From Frankia torreyi (GTDB lineage Bacteria; Actinomycetota; Actinomycetes; Frankiales; Frankiaceae): a stretch of DNA of 34,968 nucleotides. Position 1 is the first letter of the stretch. Each line of letters starts with the position of its first letter. Under the pieces are notes generated by a model, which searched no databases, was not told where the DNA came from, and saw only the letters and a program-made list of their open reading frames with translations. Positions 1-7,561 of the stretch are shown one piece after another. A program made the translations under genes and the position numbers. The stretch is from the NCBI RefSeq assembly GCF_000948395.1, contig NZ_JYFN01000003.1, positions 1 through 34,968 of the forward strand, in the 5' to 3' direction.

Positions 1-166
1 CGTGCGCAAGTCATCCTCAGGATACGGCGCCGTGGCTGCCGTGCCGACCACCCGCGATCGTTCGGTCGGACACTTCCGAGGCGAATATTCGTGTGCCTGG
101 CGATCGCTTGTGTCGGGGCGATGGTTCGGCGCGTCCTGGGCGTCGGTGATCGTCGGGTCGGTCGCC

Positions 167-294
167 GTGCACGCCGGGGGCGGCCGGACGCCCAACGCGC
201 GCAGACGCGCGCACGCGCGTTGGGGCCGTGCATGCACACCCTCGTGCACACCGGTGCACGGCGCGTTGCACGATCCGTGCACACCCTCGTGCAC
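167..294. repeat. Cluster of GTGCAC palindromes (iteron-like)
   Basis: The 6-bp palindrome GTGCAC occurs at 167, 244, 254, 277 and 289. A perfect 10-bp palindrome GTGCATGCAC lies at 228-237, and a TTGCAC variant at 266. A 23-bp stretch is repeated exactly at 233-255 and 278-300. By base composition GTGCAC should occur about once in several kb, so the cluster is not chance. It sits at the far end of the integrase region, so it could be a set of binding sites for an element-encoded repressor or replication initiator. No such protein is visible in the window. Confidence 0.6.
191..224. repeat. Perfect inverted repeat, 11-bp arms
   Basis: The left arm CCCAACGCGCG (191-201) is the exact reverse complement of CGCGCGTTGGG (214-224), with a 12-nt spacer that is itself alternating CG/CA. 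It lies inside the GTGCAC cluster. A stem-loop beside iteron-like sites is a common layout for replication origins or autoregulated promoters of mobile elements. That role is inference only. Confidence 0.6.
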
Positions 295-300
295 ACCGGT

Positions 301-1213
301 CCGGCCGGCCGATCGAGAGCCGTCACGCGCCCGGTCGGAGCACTGCCGCACATCTTGATCGTGGACTCGGCTTTCCGTGTTCAAACCATGCCTTTCGTCC
401 CGGCTCTCGGCTCTGTTATCCGATTCTCCGTAGTGGGATAATTAGGTTCGGATCGGTGTGCCCTGCCGTGCGCCGCTTCGAATGATCGTCAGTCCGGCTC
501 CTGTGAAGTGGGTGGGTATGACATCGTTGTGGATCTTCGTTGGCCGTTCGGTGCGTCGGGCGGGCGCGGCAGGTCGTGGCACGCGCCTCTCCTCGGCGAC
601 CGGCGTGCGTCGTCTTCTCGTGGTCGTGTCCGTCCCTGGAGAATCCACGAGGGTCGGGCGGAAACCCGGGTACACATGGCGCGGTGGATCACCTTAGCCG
701 GCGGGCTATTCACTCTGTGTGACGGTAGCGGGATGTCCGCTACGGGGTAGCGGCGTCGCTGACGGGTGCGACGGCCTGTCCGCCGGTCTGAGCTGGGCGG
801 ACGGGTCGGGGTAGCCGTAGCGGCCGTGGGGTCGCTGTCGGGCGCGTGCCCGCGTGGAGCGGGGGCGACGTGCCGTGGCGCGGCTACCGCTGCCCGTGCG
901 GACATCGGCATTCCTCGGATGATCCGGATCACGCGAGAGAAACGGGTATCGGCTCGTTGGAAGCGGCACGCCGTGACAAGGTTCAGATCCTCGCCGAATA
1001 TCAGCCGGAAATCAACTGCGATGACTTTGCCGCCGCGATAGTCGCCTGGGCGGACATCCTTGTCCGCGAAGGGTCGGAGAACGGTGCCGGGGGAATTCCA
1101 TCGGCCCGTACAGGAGAATCCGAGAGGCTTGGTAACGACTCGGAGAGCCGGTTTTCGTAGGGTCACGTCGTGCTATCATGCCCGCGACGATCACCACGAG
1201 AAAGGGTGTGCCC
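301..1213. other. Region without a convincing gene
   Basis: Several open frames cross this stretch on both strands (for example 846-1160 on plus and 489-1166 on minus). They overlap each other, show no recognisable domain and have mixed third-position GC. A TATCAT hexamer at 1174-1179 could be the -10 box of the recombinase that follows, with a transcript start shortly before its ribosome binding site. A small excisionase or repressor gene would be expected in this position but none could be identified. Confidence 0.4.
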
Positions 1214-2770
1214 ATGCCCCCGAAACTCATCCCGGAATCCAATGTGCCGCTGTCCGCATCGTCTTCCCGACGACTGCGGGCGATCTTTTATCTTCGGGTG
1301 TCGACGAAGTCGCAGGTTCGCACCGACTACGATCCGGAAGGCATCTCGATTCCGGCGCAACGCGTCGCCTGCGGGGCGAAAGCCGAGACGTTGAATGCCG
1401 ACATGGTGGGCGAATATGTCGAGCCGGGCGCCTCGGCGCACAAGAATCTCGAACGACGCGAAGCGTTCCGCGACATGATCGCCCGGATCGAGCGGGACCG
1501 AGACGTCGATATCGTGATCGTCTACCAGCTCAGCCGGTTTGCGCGGGACCGGTACGAGGATGCCGCTTTCACGCTGCGGCTGCGGAATCTCGGGGTTGTT
1601 CTCGTGTCCGCGACGGAGAACATCGACGAGACACCGGCCGGTGAACTCCTCCACGGCATGCTCGCCGTGATCAACCAGTATCAGTCTGCCGCCAGTGGGA
1701 AAGACATCAGCTACAAGATGCGGCAGAAAGCCGCGAACGGGGGCACCCCGGGACTTGCTCCGATCGGCTATCTCAACGTGCGGATCCGCAGTGAGGGACG
1801 GAACATCGCCGATGTCATCCTGGACGACGACCGGTGGCGACTCGTGCAATGGGCCTTCGAGCAGTTCGCCACGGGCGCATGGACGGTGGACAGCCTGACC
1901 GAGGAACTCAACCATCGTGGTCTGACCAACCGCGCCGCAGGGAAACGCCCGGAACGACCGCTACATTCCTCCCACGTTCACAAGATCCTGACGAACCGGT
2001 ACTACGTCGGCGTTGTCACCTTCGACGGGGTCGAATATCCGAACGGCCGGCATCCCACCTTCGTCGCCGAAAGAACGTTCATCAGAGTGCAGGGGCTCCT
2101 GAAATCCCGTGCGACTGCTGGCGACAAGCCACAGAAGCACTTTCATCCATTGAAGGGAAGCCTGTTCTGTGGCTACTGCGGGTCGAAGTTCGGGATCACG
2201 AACGCGACCGGCCGGCACGGCGGAACCTACCCGTACTTCTACTGCCTCGGCCGGAAACCCGGAAAGTGCCGACAGCCCTACGTGATGATCGATGTGGTGG
2301 AACAGCTCGTGGCGGACTGGTGGCGCCGCGTCGAGATCACGTCACGGCAGAAGGCGCGGATTCGTGACATCGTGCTCGACGGTGCGCAATCCCTCGTGAC
2401 GAACGGCAGCGAACAGGCCGATCGGCAGAAACGCCGCATCGGCGAACTCGAAGACGAACGGCGCTCATGCATGCGCGCCTACTACAACGGCGCCATCGGC
2501 GAGGAACTCCTGAAGGAGGAGCAGCAGCGGATCGACCGCGACCTTGGTAAGGCGCGCCATGCTCCGCGCCTGCGAAAGCGAATGGCAGTCGATCGGCGCG
2601 GTTCTCGACCGACTGTTGAGTCTGTGCGAGGACAGCCACGCCCTTTACACCACTGCCCCGGCACTCGTGAAACGCCAACTCAACCAAGCGGTTTTCAAAC
2701 GCTTCTGGATCATCGACAAGGGAATCCACGGGGCGGACCTGTTCCCGCCGCTGGCCCAACTCCTCGGTGA
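1214..2770 (+). CDS. Large serine recombinase (site-specific integrase), frame disrupted
   Basis: This enzyme class cuts and rejoins DNA at att sites through a serine nucleophile. Residues 22-30 read RAIFYLRVS, the resolvase catalytic motif with Ser30. YQLSRFARDR supplies the conserved arginines, GLAPIGY opens the recombinase domain, and a zinc ribbon follows (C319-x2-C322, C344-x7-C352). An Arg/Glu-rich coiled coil lies near residues 395-445. The ATG at 1214 is preferred over the ATG at 1178 because GAGAAAGGG (1198-1206) precedes it at good spacing. After about 2551 this frame turns into Arg/Pro-rich nonsense, while the family's normal C-terminus continues one base out of frame, so a single extra base in the GCGCGCC run at about 2549-2555 is likely. 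It is either an inactivated integrase or a sequence error. The gene looks less GC-rich than its neighbours, as expected of an acquired element, and it lies just beyond the 3' end of a tRNA gene. Confidence 0.85.
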   Translation: MPPKLIPESNVPLSASSSRRLRAIFYLRVSTKSQVRTDYDPEGISIPAQRVACGAKAETLNADMVGEYVEPGASAHKNLERREAFRDMIARIERDRDVDIVIVYQLSRFARDRYEDAAFTLRLRNLGVVLVSATENIDETPAGELLHGMLAVINQYQSAASGKDISYKMRQKAANGGTPGLAPIGYLNVRIRSEGRNIADVILDDDRWRLVQWAFEQFATGAWTVDSLTEELNHRGLTNRAAGKRPERPLHSSHVHKILTNRYYVGVVTFDGVEYPNGRHPTFVAERTFIRVQGLLKSRATAGDKPQKHFHPLKGSLFCGYCGSKFGITNATGRHGGTYPYFYCLGRKPGKCRQPYVMIDVVEQLVADWWRRVEITSRQKARIRDIVLDGAQSLVTNGSEQADRQKRRIGELEDERRSCMRAYYNGAIGEELLKEEQQRIDRDLGKARHAPRLRKRMAVDRRGSRPTVESVRGQPRPLHHCPGTRETPTQPSGFQTLLDHRQGNPRGGPVPAAGPTPR

Positions 2771-3092
2771 TGATCTTGCCGCACTGCTGAGTCAGGAGAT
2801 CCAAGATCTGATCAAGGCTCAGAACGCCACAGACCAGCCGGAAAGCCCAGACCTACATATCCCCACCAAGGGCGCACCTACGGTTGTCCACGATGACACC
2901 AGACCCCGTAGCGGGCATGCGAAAGCGCCGCTCGGCATCTATCCGAACGGCGCAACGCCCTATCAGCTCAAGAGAGGGGAAGATCATGTTTCGAACTTCA
3001 CCACTCTTGTGGAGGTGAGGGGACTCGAACCCCTGGCCTCCTCCGTGCGAGGGAGGCGCTCTACCAGGCTGAGCTACACCCCCTGGAAGTAA
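2554..3092 (+). pseudogene. Out-of-frame C-terminal part of the serine recombinase, reading into the tRNA gene
   Basis: In the +1 frame from about 2554 the translation resumes the family C-terminus: ESEWQSIGAVLDRLL, then HALYTTAPALVKRQLNQAVFKRFW and a LFPPLAQLL segment. These are typical of large serine recombinases (coiled coil followed by the RRQLNQAFF-like motif). The frame has no stop until 3090-3092, so its last residues are antisense translation of the tRNA-Ala gene (3010-3083). Such read-through is what is seen when the 3' end of an integrase gene abuts the crossover site. The natural C-terminus before integration is unknown. No separate ribosome binding site supports independent expression. 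Confidence 0.7.
3010..3083 (-). tRNA. tRNA-Ala (anticodon CGC)
   Basis: Read on the minus strand, the sequence folds as a full cloverleaf. The acceptor GGGGGTG (3077-3083) pairs with CACCTCC (3011-3017), including one G-U pair. The D arm begins AGCTCAG, the anticodon arm CCTCC/GGAGG encloses the loop CTCGCAC with anticodon CGC (3047-3049), and the T arm is AGGGG-TTCGAGT-CCCCT. The discriminator is A at 3010 and CCA is not encoded. It reads GCG alanine codons, which are common in this genome. The recombinase lies on its 3' side, the usual place for an element integrated in a tRNA gene. Confidence 0.95.
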
Positions 3093-3179
3093 CCGAAGCT
3101 TACAGGATGGCGGGGGCTGTGTGACGACCACCCCCGTCCGGAGTGCATCGCCATCCGTCCGCCAGCTCGCGGGGCGAGG

Positions 3180-3881
3180 TCAGCCGATCCGGACCGTGCG
3201 GTCGCTGTGGGCCTCGGAGCGGGCCTCGTCGCGCCTCTCGGAGCGGGCGGCGGGGAGGGCCACCTCGGTGAGGTCCGCGCGGCGGCCGGGGTGTTCCGCG
3301 GCGCCGACTGTGACGGCGGTGCCGGCCCGGCGCGGGGTGCTTGGGCGCCGGGCCGGGGAGCCTGTGCGGGCAGGCGCCACGCCGGCGCCGACGGGACGAT
3401 CGGGGGTGGTGGCCCAGCCGCCCTGGCCCCGGATGCCGAGGGCCTCCTGCGCTCCGGAGCCGACGAGGGTCGCGAGGAGGTGGTCGAACAGGTAGGCGGC
3501 GGCGGTCGGTCGCAGCAGGCCCGCCTCGTGGCGGGACCAGCCCCACGCGCGGGCGCCGTCGACGACGAGTTCCTGGTCCGGCCCGGCGTCCCCGGGGAAG
3601 GCCAGTCGCGCGTCGGCGGTCGGCGGTGGGCCGTCGAGGGGGCGGTGGGCCCACAGTTGCAGGGCCTCCTCGGGGCACCATCCCTCGTCCCGGACGGCTA
3701 CCTGCCACGCCGCCCGACCGGGCCGGTACACGGCGAGCCGGACGGACGTGCCCCGGCAACGGAAGTGCAGGCCGACTCCGTCCGGGCGGACGCCTCGTAT
3801 CTCGACCGGCACCGCGGAGCTGCCCGGGCAGACGAGGTATCCCTCGTCCCGCAGACGGGCCATCCACGCCTTGAAGGACAC
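3180..3881 (-). CDS. Protein of unknown function
   Basis: About 233 residues, not recognised. From the GTG at 3881 the protein opens SFKAWMARLRDEGYLVCPG and continues with regular alternating hydrophobic stretches (VGLHFRCRG, VRLAVYRPG, AWQVAVRDEGW). An EEALQLW segment and a C-terminal helix AAYLFDHLLATLV follow. The last 80 residues are Arg/Ala/Pro-rich and may be disordered. I chose GTG 3881 because AGGAAGG lies 11 nt upstream and the sequence before it is Arg/Pro-rich with no protein-like pattern. ATG 4034 is the alternative start. No signal peptide or membrane helix is seen. It stands alone, convergent with the recombinase and beyond the tRNA, so it is probably chromosomal. Confidence 0.55.
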   Translation of the reverse strand: MSFKAWMARLRDEGYLVCPGSSAVPVEIRGVRPDGVGLHFRCRGTSVRLAVYRPGRAAWQVAVRDEGWCPEEALQLWAHRPLDGPPPTADARLAFPGDAGPDQELVVDGARAWGWSRHEAGLLRPTAAAYLFDHLLATLVGSGAQEALGIRGQGGWATTPDRPVGAGVAPARTGSPARRPSTPRRAGTAVTVGAAEHPGRRADLTEVALPAARSERRDEARSEAHSDRTVRIG

Positions 3882-5101: not shown

Positions 5102-6634
5102 GTGATCTTCAACACTCGGGTGGAGGCGGGCCGGCAGCTCGGCGCACGGCTGGCCCACCTGCGCGGCCAGGATGTCGTCGTCGTGGGGCTGCCCCGCGGC
5201 GGGGTCCCGGTCGGGTACGAGGTGGCGCGGGCCCTGGATGCGCCACTGGACGTGATCCTTGTCCGCAAGATCGGTGTGCCGTTCCAGCCCGAGCTCGCCA
5301 TGGGCGCGATCGCCGAGGGCGGGGTGCGGGTCGTCAACGAGGAGACCCTGCGGCTGGCCAACGTCGGTCCGGGCGCGTTCGCCGAGGTCGAGGCGCGGGA
5401 GGCGGCCGAGTTGGAGCGGCGCGCCCGGCGCTTCCGGGACGGCCGGCCGCGGATCCCCCTCGCCGGCCGCACGGTGGTCATCGTCGACGACGGGATCGCG
5501 ACCGGTTCGACGGCGCTGGCCGCCTGCCGGGTCGTCCGGGCCCAGGGGGCGGAGCGGGTCGTGCTCGCCACCCCCGTCGCCGCCCGTGACCGCGTCGACT
5601 GGCTGCGCCGGCAGGCCGACGAGGTGATCTGCGTCCAGGAGCCGGCGAGCTTCTTCGGCATCGGCGAGTTCTACGCCGACTTCGATCAGACACCGGACGA
5701 AGAGGTCACCGATCTGCTGCGCCGGGCCGCTGCCCGCCGTCCGGGGGGCGCGACCGGAAATCGCGATGCCGATCCGGTGGAGGACGCCCGTGCGGAGGCC
5801 GCCCGCGTGGAGGGTGCCCGAGCGGAGAACGCCTGCGGGGAGGCCGCCCGAGCGGAGGGTGCCCGCGGGGAGACCGCCCGAGCGGAGACCGCCTGCGGAG
5901 AGACCGCCCGAGCGGAGGGTGCCCCAGCGGAGGGTGCCTGTGACGGTGGGGGGCCCGGGACGGGCCGGGTCGTGGAGGTGTCGATTCCGGCGGATCTGGT
6001 GCGGCTCGCCGGGCGGCTGAGCGTGCCCCCGCAGCCGGGCGGGGTGGTCGTCTTCGCGCACGGCAGCGGCAGCAGCCGCATCAGCCCGCGTAACCGCTTC
6101 GTCGCCGACACCCTGGCGTCCGCGGGGCTCGCCACGCTGCTGTTCGATCTGCTGACCCCGGACGAGGAGCGCGACGTCGGGAACGTGTTCGACATCGGGC
6201 TGCTCGCCCGGCGCCTGCTTGCCGCGACCGCCTGGCTGCGGGAGGTGTCCGCGACCGCCGCCCTACCGCTGGGCTACTTCGGCGCGAGCACCGGCGCCGC
6301 GGCGGCGCTGTCCGCCGCGGCCGAGGCCGCCCAGCAACCCGCCTTCGACGTCGCCGCCGTCGTCTCCCGGGGCGGGCGGCCGGACCTGGCCTGGGATGCG
6401 CTGCCGGCGGTGCGGGCGCCGACCCTGCTCGTCGTCGGCGGGCTCGATGAACAGGTCCTCGAGCTGAACCGGCGGGCGCGGGAGCGGCTCACCGGCTGCG
6501 CGAGTCGCCTGGAGATCGTGCCGGGCGCGACGCATCTCTTCAGCGAGCCGGGCGCGCTGGAGCGGGTGGCCGCGCTCGCCCGGGACTGGTTCGTCGACCA
6601 CCTCACCCTGCTGGGCCACGCACACCAGGTCTGA
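5102..6634 (+). CDS. Phosphoribosyltransferase / alpha-beta hydrolase fusion protein
   Basis: A cytoplasmic two-domain protein of 510 residues. Residues 1 to about 215 form a type I phosphoribosyltransferase domain with the PRPP-binding loop VVIVDDGIATGSTA (about 124-137). Residues about 285-505 form a dienelactone-hydrolase-like alpha/beta hydrolase: the FAHGSGSSR turn, the nucleophile in GAS396TG, Asp449 in GGLDEQ and His478 in GATHLF, a complete Ser-Asp-His triad. The domains are joined by a low-complexity linker of ten 5-residue repeats. The GTG at 5102 is chosen because the PRTase fold begins immediately (IFNTRVEAG). GGTGAG and GAGGGA lie just upstream, although this start signal is only fair. 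The architecture matches the fused PRTase/hydrolase proteins of actinobacteria such as M. tuberculosis Rv0571c, a DosR-regulon protein. Substrates of either domain are unknown. A CBS/DUF1918 gene follows 78 bp downstream on the same strand and may be co-transcribed. Confidence 0.9.
   Translation: MIFNTRVEAGRQLGARLAHLRGQDVVVVGLPRGGVPVGYEVARALDAPLDVILVRKIGVPFQPELAMGAIAEGGVRVVNEETLRLANVGPGAFAEVEAREAAELERRARRFRDGRPRIPLAGRTVVIVDDGIATGSTALAACRVVRAQGAERVVLATPVAARDRVDWLRRQADEVICVQEPASFFGIGEFYADFDQTPDEEVTDLLRRAAARRPGGATGNRDADPVEDARAEAARVEGARAENACGEAARAEGARGETARAETACGETARAEGAPAEGACDGGGPGTGRVVEVSIPADLVRLAGRLSVPPQPGGVVVFAHGSGSSRISPRNRFVADTLASAGLATLLFDLLTPDEERDVGNVFDIGLLARRLLAATAWLREVSATAALPLGYFGASTGAAAALSAAAEAAQQPAFDVAAVVSRGGRPDLAWDALPAVRAPTLLVVGGLDEQVLELNRRARERLTGCASRLEIVPGATHLFSEPGALERVAALARDWFVDHLTLLGHAHQV
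5786..5935 (+). repeat. Ten 15-bp tandem repeats encoding the interdomain linker
   Basis: Ten in-frame 15-bp units, consensus GCC-CGA-GCG-GAG-NNN, encode a repeated Ala-Arg-Ala-Glu-x pentapeptide (residues 229-278). Some units are nearly identical, which implies recent duplication. The predicted product is a flexible or helical charged linker between the two enzyme domains. The copy number is likely to vary between strains. Confidence 0.85.
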
Positions 6635-6712
6635 CCGACCTCGTTCGTCAAGCACCTTTGCGTAATCGTGTGCGTGCTCCCCGAAATGGGGGAACGACGT
6701 CAAGGGGAGCGC

Positions 6713-7561
6713 ATGGCCCACCCGGGCGGGGCGTCGGGCGGAGAGGGGCTAGGCATGGCCTACATCGGTTCGGTGGTCAGCGGGCCGCCGGTGACCGTGG
6801 CGAGAGCCACCACGATCAGCGAGGCGGCCCGGAAGATGGGGCGAACGGGCGTCGGCGCGCTGCTCGTCGTCGACGATGACCGGCAGGCGGCGGAGCGGCA
6901 GGTCGATGACCGGCAGGCGGGGGAGCGGCAGGTCGGGGATCGACTGGTCGGCATCGTGACCGACCGTGACATCGTCCTGCGCGGGGTGGCGCGGGGGATC
7001 GGGCCGGACGGCCGGATCGACGCGCTGATGACGACCGAGGTCATCACCGTGCCCGCCGGCATGGGCGTCGAACGGGCCTACGAGATCTTCCGGGATCACG
7101 CGATTCGGCGGCTGCCGGTGCTGGACGGCCGGCGCATCGTCGGCCTGGTCTCCGTCGACGATCTGCTGATCCGCAGCGAGCGGGAGATCGCGGACCTGGT
7201 GCATCCGCTGTGCGAGGAGACGTTCGCCCCGCACCGCGAGGCGGCGGCGCCGGTCGTGACGGAACGAGTGACGACCACGACCACGACCACCACGGCGGCC
7301 GTCCGCATGGCCGATTTCGCCGCGCCCGCCCGTCGACGGACCGCGCTGCACGCGCACCCCGGAGACACCCTGGTGGTTCACAGCCACGTACCCAGGGCAC
7401 CGGACCGGCTCGGGGAGATCTTCGAGGCCCGGACGGACGCGGGTGACCCGCCGTTCGCTGTGCGCTGGTCAGACACCGGGCATGTCAGCTTCGTGTACCC
7501 CGGCCCGGACGCGGAGATCCGCCGTGGCGGCGAGCGGGCGGTCGCGGACAGCACCCGCTAG
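6713..7561 (+). CDS. CBS-pair protein with C-terminal DUF1918 domain
   Basis: About 282 residues, predicted cytoplasmic. CBS motif 1 begins IGSVVSGPPVTVARATTISEA and ends LVGIVTDRDIVLRG. CBS motif 2 runs from ALMTTEVITVPAG to IVGLVSVDDLLI. Paired CBS motifs usually bind adenosine nucleotides and act as energy or redox sensors. After a Thr-rich linker, residues about 214-275 (GDTLVVHSHVPRAP through GHVSFVYPGPDAEI) match DUF1918, a small SH3-like domain of actinobacteria. ATG 6713 has AAGGGGAG four bases upstream. ATG 6755 has a second good site (GGAGAGGGG) and starts directly at the CBS fold, so either could be used. A 30-bp duplication inserts DDRQAxERQV twice into the first CBS motif. DosR-regulon proteins of mycobacteria include CBS-pair (Rv2626c) and DUF1918 (Rv0569) members. 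The fusion of the two beside a PRTase/hydrolase suggests a stress-response role. Confidence 0.88.
   Translation: MAHPGGASGGEGLGMAYIGSVVSGPPVTVARATTISEAARKMGRTGVGALLVVDDDRQAAERQVDDRQAGERQVGDRLVGIVTDRDIVLRGVARGIGPDGRIDALMTTEVITVPAGMGVERAYEIFRDHAIRRLPVLDGRRIVGLVSVDDLLIRSEREIADLVHPLCEETFAPHREAAAPVVTERVTTTTTTTTAAVRMADFAAPARRRTALHAHPGDTLVVHSHVPRAPDRLGEIFEARTDAGDPPFAVRWSDTGHVSFVYPGPDAEIRRGGERAVADSTR
6875..6934 (+). repeat. 30-bp tandem duplication inside the first CBS motif
   Basis: The 30-bp unit at 6875-6904 is repeated at 6905-6934 with one mismatch (C to G). It adds a second DDRQAGERQV segment in the loop after the VVDD strand of CBS motif 1. The duplication keeps frame and falls where a loop can tolerate insertion. 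Confidence 0.85.

Follow-up and report, generated by a model that had tools for sequence, protein, structure and literature searches.

A repeat cassette of Frankia mobile elements as a candidate clt-type docking site for TraB

TraB of Streptomyces plasmids recognizes 8-bp clt repeats through a C-terminal helix (PMC4170104, PMC3583192). The proven clt of pJV1 consists of nine 9-bp repeats, CCGCACA[CG][CG], and pIJ101 has different clt repeats, located elsewhere than after tra (PMC3583192). In our examination of pJV1, nine CCGCACA units were found directly after tra, five of them at steps of 12, 12, 11, and 13 bp. Some of the tRNA-associated integrative elements described in Frankia are without tra or rep and were regarded as possible remnant or mobilizable elements; one element, Faln2929, carries a serine recombinase gene convergent with tra and rep (PMC3218068). 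TraB hijacking has been posed as an open question (PMC9513070).

The DNA analyzed here (the window) comprises 34,968 nucleotides and forms the left end of contig C66 in the 7.62-Mb genome of Frankia torreyi. A cluster of short repeats lies about 0.9 kb ahead of a serine recombinase gene. The features referred to below are as follows.

163..300, plus strand: cassette whose copies were compared by alignment and profile search
167..172, plus strand: outer GTGCAC site, separated from the palindrome to its right by about 20 nt
191..224, no strand: GC-rich palindrome with perfect 11-bp arms (191-201 and 214-224)
228..237, no strand: GTGCATGCAC, two overlapping units that head the array
229..300, plus strand: array of TGCA-core units, candidate TraB recognition sequences, with units from 229, 233, 245, 255, 267, 278, and 290
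846..1160, plus strand: small conserved open reading frame (ORF) upstream of the integrase, from alignment; no Pfam match at 0.01
1178..2770, plus strand: large serine recombinase (integrase); Pfam Resolvase, Recombinase, and Zn_ribbon_recom
3009..3083, minus strand: tRNA-Ala (CGC); its 3' end borders the element on the right

The repeats reported in an earlier note on this DNA were all located. Five GTGCAC sites fall within 134 bp (at 167, 244, 254, 277, and 289), together with GTGCATGCAC at 228-237, an exact 23-bp direct repeat within the array (233-255 and 278-300), and an inverted repeat with perfect 11-bp arms, the palindrome listed above. We found one more unit than the note had listed, TTGCAC at 266-271. 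The steps between array units are 4, 12, 10, 12, 11, and 12 bp. The note had also judged the cluster to be far beyond chance, in accord with our simulations: Markov models of order 1, 2, and 3 were used to generate 300 windows each (900 in all), and no 134-bp stretch contained more than 3 GTGCAC sites, as opposed to the 5 observed. Over the entire window, GTGCAC was not enriched (12 observed versus 13.1 expected). It is the clustering, and not the overall count of GTGCAC, that stands out. As single-stranded DNA, the palindrome of the window folded at -16 kcal/mol (z, -1.6), and the folds of two other copies did not surpass those of shuffles, the pFQ12 stretch covering only part of the palindrome. 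An RNA function is not argued here: the RNAalifold consensus was weak (25 pairs, 2 of them with double changes), and tRNA was the sole match in an Rfam scan.

The arrangement is conserved as a cassette. In an alignment of 12 copies, an outer GTGCAC is separated by about 20 nt from a GC-rich palindrome, after which come CC-GTGCATGCAC and a TGCAC array, the units of which are mostly 10 to 12 bp apart. The outer GTGCAC is almost invariant across the alignment, and a TGCA-core site is found 55 to 66 bp ahead of the first array unit in 12 of the 15 cassettes listed. The palindrome reads CCAACG..CGTTGG in the window and CCTA(C/T)G..CGTAGG in four of the five copies linked to traB. The cassettes of the window and of G004 show 81% identity, as opposed to 52% (positions 20 to 160) and 61% (301 to 440) for the flanks. 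In the closer QA3, the values are 89% for the cassette, 78% and 92% for the flanks, and 98% over positions 441 to 900, so that this comparison does not single the cassette out.

A 161-bp query produced five matches in its own genome and matches in 19 of 97 related genomes. All strong matches were within Frankia, and those outside the genus were 25 to 38 bp long. A sequence model of the cassette was positive in 9 of 13 Frankia genomes and, at an E value of 1e-4, in none of 22 other genomes of the order. In a class-wide scan of 393 genomes, carried out with stricter filters, nine were positive at 1e-6, all of them Frankia, and the 380 others were negative. Among the genomes searched, the cassette is restricted to Frankia. 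Arrays spread over the chromosome with no link to mobile elements, the pattern that the earlier note had set against its own proposal, were not seen: positive genomes contained one to four copies each at 1e-6. The eleven best copies (E value of 5e-22 or better) are on plasmid contigs or have traB or integrase genes as neighbors, and the contexts of four weaker ones (G007:C40, G007:C363, G001:C118, and G001:C342) are less clear.

Two sets of matches were discarded. An exact-core scan of genome contigs returned six matches, three in Frankia and three in metagenome-assembled genomes of other phyla; the latter have no array, the count of TGCAC/GTGCA being three in 400 bp, and were attributed to chance. 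A phage origin was rejected, as the phage collection gave no match and the exact core pattern was found in none of the viral contigs.

Some of the weaker copies have neighbors of their own. The divergent cassettes of G001:C342 (L091) and G007:C363 (L042) lie near Tn3-family transposase or resolvase genes, and the former is upstream of a Prim-Pol gene. On G001:C118 (L090), an 8-kb contig, the cassette lies at the edge, and the TIR-TPR and TIR-STAND-WD40 proteins encoded there may represent a defense cargo.

As the earlier note had proposed to check, the motif is also present on further elements that have serine recombinases. The window-type (type A) integrase elements are carried by the window, QA3 (G003), AiPs1 (G012), and G004. 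In the latter three, the cassette is flanked by an XRE gene on one side and a large serine integrase gene on the other. The XRE side of the window element is cut off by the contig edge, and a repressor-like XRE gene is found in the relatives just left of the position matching that edge. Of the replication or repressor gene that the note had suggested seeking left of the window, a repressor candidate is thus present in the relatives, whereas no replication protein was recognized on the small window-type elements. The ORF at 846..1160 probably belongs to the same element as the integrase, and the tRNA-Ala (CGC) gene is the presumed attachment site. Type A elements of the relatives are located at Ile(GAT) twice and at Ala(GGC). 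At all three tRNA genes used by these closely related serine integrases, the tRNA gene has TCCAC at its 3' end, and the element end that comes next reads AGAGTGG. Three different tRNA genes represent an unusual target choice for a serine integrase.

The type A elements are small. The boundary of the QA3 element, set by alignment to G006, gave a length of at most 7.4 kb, the distance from the tRNA at which the chromosome common to both resumes. The AiPs1 element spans at most 5.8 kb, since the chromosome that it has in common with QA3 stops 5.8 kb from the tRNA. At the left end of QA3, a search at 14 bp for an exact direct repeat derived from the tRNA gave none that was convincing. A six-frame search of the QA3 and AiPs1 elements found no TraB, the three TraB-family matches of QA3 lying elsewhere than the window-type element, and no replication families were present among the ORFs scanned on the two elements. 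Actinomycete integrative and conjugative elements (AICEs) combine tra, rep, and int modules; QA3 and AiPs1 have int and XRE only. The window element has its own serine integrase, at a tRNA gene, and would work like integrative and mobilizable elements (IMEs). Because the left side of the window element is missing, we infer its lack of traB from the relatives. The assemblies of G003, G004, and G012, the three other genomes with window-type elements, contain no TraB of the type B described below, so no such helper is resident in them, which counts against the transfer-site reading given below.

Two peculiarities of the integrase region were noted in passing. The frame of the window integrase appears to change near 2.55 kb relative to L036 and L037, and QA3 is open throughout; the window copy may be inactive or may contain a sequencing error. 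The end of contig G000:C67 (L051) of the same genome carries a second copy of the region, which is 85.6% identical over 1,647 bp, abuts a tRNA-Ile gene, and extends as far as the end of the contig. The presence of two such integrase elements may have broken the assembly.

Type B elements are carried by contig C32 of the same genome as the window and by G002, G001, G009, and G011. In all five, 22 to 36 bp separate the stop codon of an FtsK-type, TraB-like gene from the start of the array, and these five traB genes are the only close matches in the genus. Their products score 130 to 148 bits against NF041214, below the model cut-off of 800. The sequence on the array side of these copies is the traB gene itself, with 25 to 34% A+T. 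In G001 and G009, a serine integrase gene is convergent with traB, so no promoter would be expected at the array.

Within the presumed recognition helix, GRxRxWV is found in pJV1 Tra and in four of the five type B TraBs, and SRSRRWV in the fifth; pIJ101 Tra differs from all of these in that segment. The C terminus of the Frankia gtarii TraB was modeled as a winged helix, with pLDDT values above 90 in that part. A Foldseek search with this model gave general winged-helix matches, none below an E value of 1e-3, and no FtsK gamma domain among the matches listed; hence, the fold speaks for a winged helix only.

In a modest set, the repeats were shown to covary with the C-terminal helix of TraB. 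The Frankia helix (G/S)R(S/P)RRWVYY pairs with TGCAC. GMSRRWVYYRL of G041 also pairs with a TGCAC array after traB; a frameshift precedes the helix in this traB, and the helix sequence given is from the frame in which the homology continues. Other helices pair with other repeats: GMSRATLYRRL of G286 with GTCTCA, RKRSWIY and RKKSWLY of L128 and L130 with GTCCA(A/G)ACC, and GRDRSWVSKQM of pJV1 with CCGCACACC. The pairs are few and are partly due to common descent. Additional arrays after traB consist of GTCTAA (G369), CGGACG (G272), CGGACA/ATCC (G020), and, in Frankia, GTGCA/GTGCG (G007:C40 and C126), and the tra-like gene of pFQ12 has a GACGCAA array of its own.

The frequency of such arrays was estimated from the commonest 6-mer in 160 bp, compared with shuffles at a threshold of p = 0.05 in 33 TraB/FtsK genes; L115 and L121, which have no downstream sequence, were left out. 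Values below 0.05 were obtained after the stop codon in 12 of the 33 genes and in the control, the last 160 bp of the gene, in 4 of 33, with two genes below 0.05 in both. Two of the five type B genes fell below 0.05, and G369 and G272 did not. By these counts, arrays after traB are common for one TraB branch and not universal.

In the genus of G286 (g114), the GTCTCA array after traB recurs at 93 to 100% identity in five of seven genomes. Eight further GTCTCA matches were weaker; of the four inspected, one follows a traB paralogue (L176). Near three orphan arrays, no TraB match was found in stretches of 14 to 17 kb. One of these arrays lies beside a tyrosine integrase gene and tRNA-Pro (G286:C62), another beside an XRE gene (G393:C2), and the third near parA (G397:C10). 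The carriers in g114 are much the same as the Frankia set, with a different repeat.

The cassette is also present on plasmid contigs. Contig C139 has a terminal overlap of 583 bp and measures 22,437 bp once closed; 22,194 of 22,384 31-mers are common to it and pFQ12 of Frankia sp. CpI1 (AY027524). The TGCAC cassette of pFQ12 lies far from its own tra-like gene, a weak family match (Pfam FtsK_SpoIIIE at an E value of 0.003, below cut-off, and NF041214 at 28 bits). Given the separate array after that gene, the TGCAC cassette is a second site. A gene for a NikA-like mobilization protein (L045, 4079-4612) is found about 0.6 kb from this cassette. The GTCAAC palindromes GTCAACggCGTTGAC and GTTGACattGTCAAC adjoin the cassette on both plasmids, pFQ12 and C16 (L045, around 3680; L007, around 7235).

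Contig C16 is 8,550 bp long, and no terminal overlap was found. We take it to be, probably, the strain's small plasmid, of the pFQ11 type (pFQ11/pFQ31, 8551 bp). It carries one good and one degenerate copy of the cassette, in inverted orientation, and gave no match to TraB. In C16 (L007), positions 2815-3620 form a run of five distinct palindromic arrays, and more are found at 6340-6660. Three of the C16 arrays have counterparts at the 3' ends of tra genes, each in a different kind of element. When the post-tra array of pFQ12 was searched across the genus, it matched pFQ12, C16:3480-3617 (78%; 3.4e-24), and, weakly, one site in G005. C16:2974-3075 matches the post-traB array of G007:C40 (80%; 9e-20) and part of that of C126 (89% over 54 bp), and C16:7293-7426 is 73 to 77% identical to the type B arrays. 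No partner has been found so far for arrays a, c, d, and g; a, c, and d had only short, weak matches outside C16 when 14 candidates were scored in each of 35 genomes of the order. In the plasmid collection, positions 2800-3460 of C16 had no match, and 6140-7440 matched the pFQ12 cassette only. A megablast search of the whole of C16 against that collection recovered only the 138-bp cassette on pFQ12, and the GntR-type regulators of the two plasmids are distant relatives (32%). An array like array b of C16 is present on G013:C72 (L169), a 4.2-kb contig of another genus, whose ORFs resemble, by eye, those of the small Frankia plasmid. The original papers on pFQ11 and pFQ12 may describe some of these repeats. 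We read C16 as a plasmid with a putative battery of clt mimics.

The earlier note had proposed a replication origin or a control region of the integrated element. That the cluster is a cis-acting site of such an element is very likely. As to its kind, an origin is not the best-supported reading, because five elements have the cassette immediately 3' of traB, the corresponding position is taken by other repeats in several TraB relatives, and the small window-type elements yielded no recognizable replication protein. In place, the Frankia arrays agree with the clt of pJV1, to which they are also similar in spacing and related in unit; this points to a transfer site. To judge from these sequence comparisons, the cluster is likely to be a clt-type docking array for TraB, of which elements with no traB would keep a mimic for mobilization in trans. 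The home context of the array would be the 3' side of traB in type B, a Frankia mobile element family. There, a TraB recognition array beside a GC-rich palindrome would let the hexameric, FtsK-like TraB select double-stranded DNA for conjugation. The window element, which to judge from its relatives has neither TraB nor a recognizable replication protein, would act as a clt mimic; it would be excised and then moved in trans by the TraB of a coresident element. The comparisons establish the conservation of the cassette, its position after traB, the spacing of the repeats, their covariation with TraB in a modest set, the restriction to Frankia among the genomes searched, and the lack of traB matches near the orphan copies examined; binding by TraB, excision, and transfer in trans are what we infer. 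Orphan copies are those of the window, QA3, AiPs1, and G004 elements, pFQ12 (far from its tra), and C16.

The closest competitor is an iteron-type origin, in which a Rep protein would bind the TGCAC units, the palindrome would extrude, and an AT-richer block would melt, integrated copies being used after excision with Rep supplied in trans. Iterons, the palindrome, and the presence of the cassette on plasmid contigs speak for such an origin. An AT-richer block of 100 bp (41 to 49% A+T, at +200) lies beside the array in seven of eight profiled copies that are not next to tra (the four type A copies, pFQ12, C16, and G007:C40, the exception being G007:C363). This block and the Prim-Pol gene downstream of the divergent G001:C342 cassette suit an origin and weaken the transfer-site reading. 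However, the block is absent from all five traB-linked copies, and the repeats found at the post-traB place track TraB. In all-against-all BLASTP (1e-4/1e-3), no protein family was common to type A, type B, pFQ12, and C16. Family scans of the ORFs given named no Rep, Prim-Pol occurring only beside the divergent copy, and the loci searched had no other match to the candidate winged helix-turn-helix protein of C16. No DnaA box was found within one mismatch of the consensus on pFQ12 or C16. Finally, four contigs of one strain carry the cassette, which an origin that causes incompatibility should not favor. We therefore regard an origin as unlikely.

If the cassette were an operator array through which the XRE-family regulator encoded just to its left governs the divergent XRE and integrase genes, this would account for its position between these genes in QA3, AiPs1, and G004 and for the orphan g114 array beside an XRE gene. 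The type A XRE protein, however, matched nothing on the type B, pFQ12, or C16 loci, and in two type B elements the cassette lies between convergent 3' ends, which makes such operators quite improbable. A parS-like partition site for plasmid ParA systems appears highly improbable: ParA or ParA-like proteins are encoded on pFQ12 (by Pfam), on C16 and G007:C40 (by similarity), and near one orphan g114 array, but the type A and type B loci gave no match to ParA queries, and parA of pFQ12 is about 9 kb from the cassette. Least credible of all is an accessory recombination site (enhancer or res-like) for serine recombinases, whose genes are nearby in the window, QA3, AiPs1, G004, G001, G009, and G007:C363 but differ in type and position, while pFQ12 and C16 gave no match to integrase or resolvase queries and one g114 orphan has a tyrosine integrase instead.

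If the transfer-site reading is carried one step further, double-stranded TraB conjugation would have its pirates: tra-less plasmids and mini-integrative elements equipped with one or several clt mimics fitted to different TraB proteins, with C16, which has at least six distinct arrays, as the extreme case. We lean toward this broader view, with somewhat less assurance than toward the reading of the cluster itself. The transfer-site reading suggests a route of spread for tra-less actinobacterial plasmids and small integrative elements. If it is true, clt arrays would often be predictable from the 3' ends of traB, helper and client could be matched by sequence, and the question would come down to a simple mating test. 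It would also provide a transfer handle for Frankia, a genus with a complete lack of genetic tools (PMC3218068).

How does the Frankia cassette compare with the systems already described? Like the clt of pJV1, and like the pWTY27 clt and the pSVH1 TRS, it comprises short repeats 3' of a tra stop codon along with inverted repeats (PMC3583192). The pJV1 repeats have a GCACA(C/G)(C/G) core and steps of 11 to 13 bp, and pJV1 Tra, like type B TraB, ends in a winged-helix-like segment. Unlike the pJV1 site, the Frankia cassette has the unit TGCAC(A), with the array on one side of a long GC palindrome, and it is also found on elements with no known tra gene. With the Frankia AICEs of Ghinet et al. 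(2011), the window-type elements share the association of integrative elements with tRNA genes (PMC3218068). The accessible text of that paper mentions clt only in general terms and gives no Frankia clt sequence. Unlike the elements described there, those of the window type (at most 5.8 to 7.4 kb) show neither tra nor rep and carry the cassette. Like IMEs, they have their own integrase and would borrow transfer functions (PMC5704250), the borrowing being our proposal in the Frankia case. The IMEs treated in the accessible part of that source use relaxases and type IV secretion helpers, TraB transfer is presented as a separate mechanism, and no TraB-dependent IME is named there. The matches listed in our literature searches, in the text available, held no report of clt mimics on tra-less elements or of TraB hijacking. 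The arrays of C16 have a parallel of another kind. Several oriT mimics may be found on one staphylococcal plasmid. In the pWBG749 system (PMC8136818, PMC4652767), nonconjugative plasmids bear copies of transfer sites from several conjugative families, and specificity is set by a DNA-binding protein of the helper (PMC8136818). These mimics serve a relaxase and type IV secretion and are transferred as single strands, whereas the Frankia site would serve a double-stranded, TraB/FtsK-like system. Thus, clt sites as such are already known, and the nearest principle to the one proposed here is the staphylococcal oriT mimic, with a different transfer mechanism.
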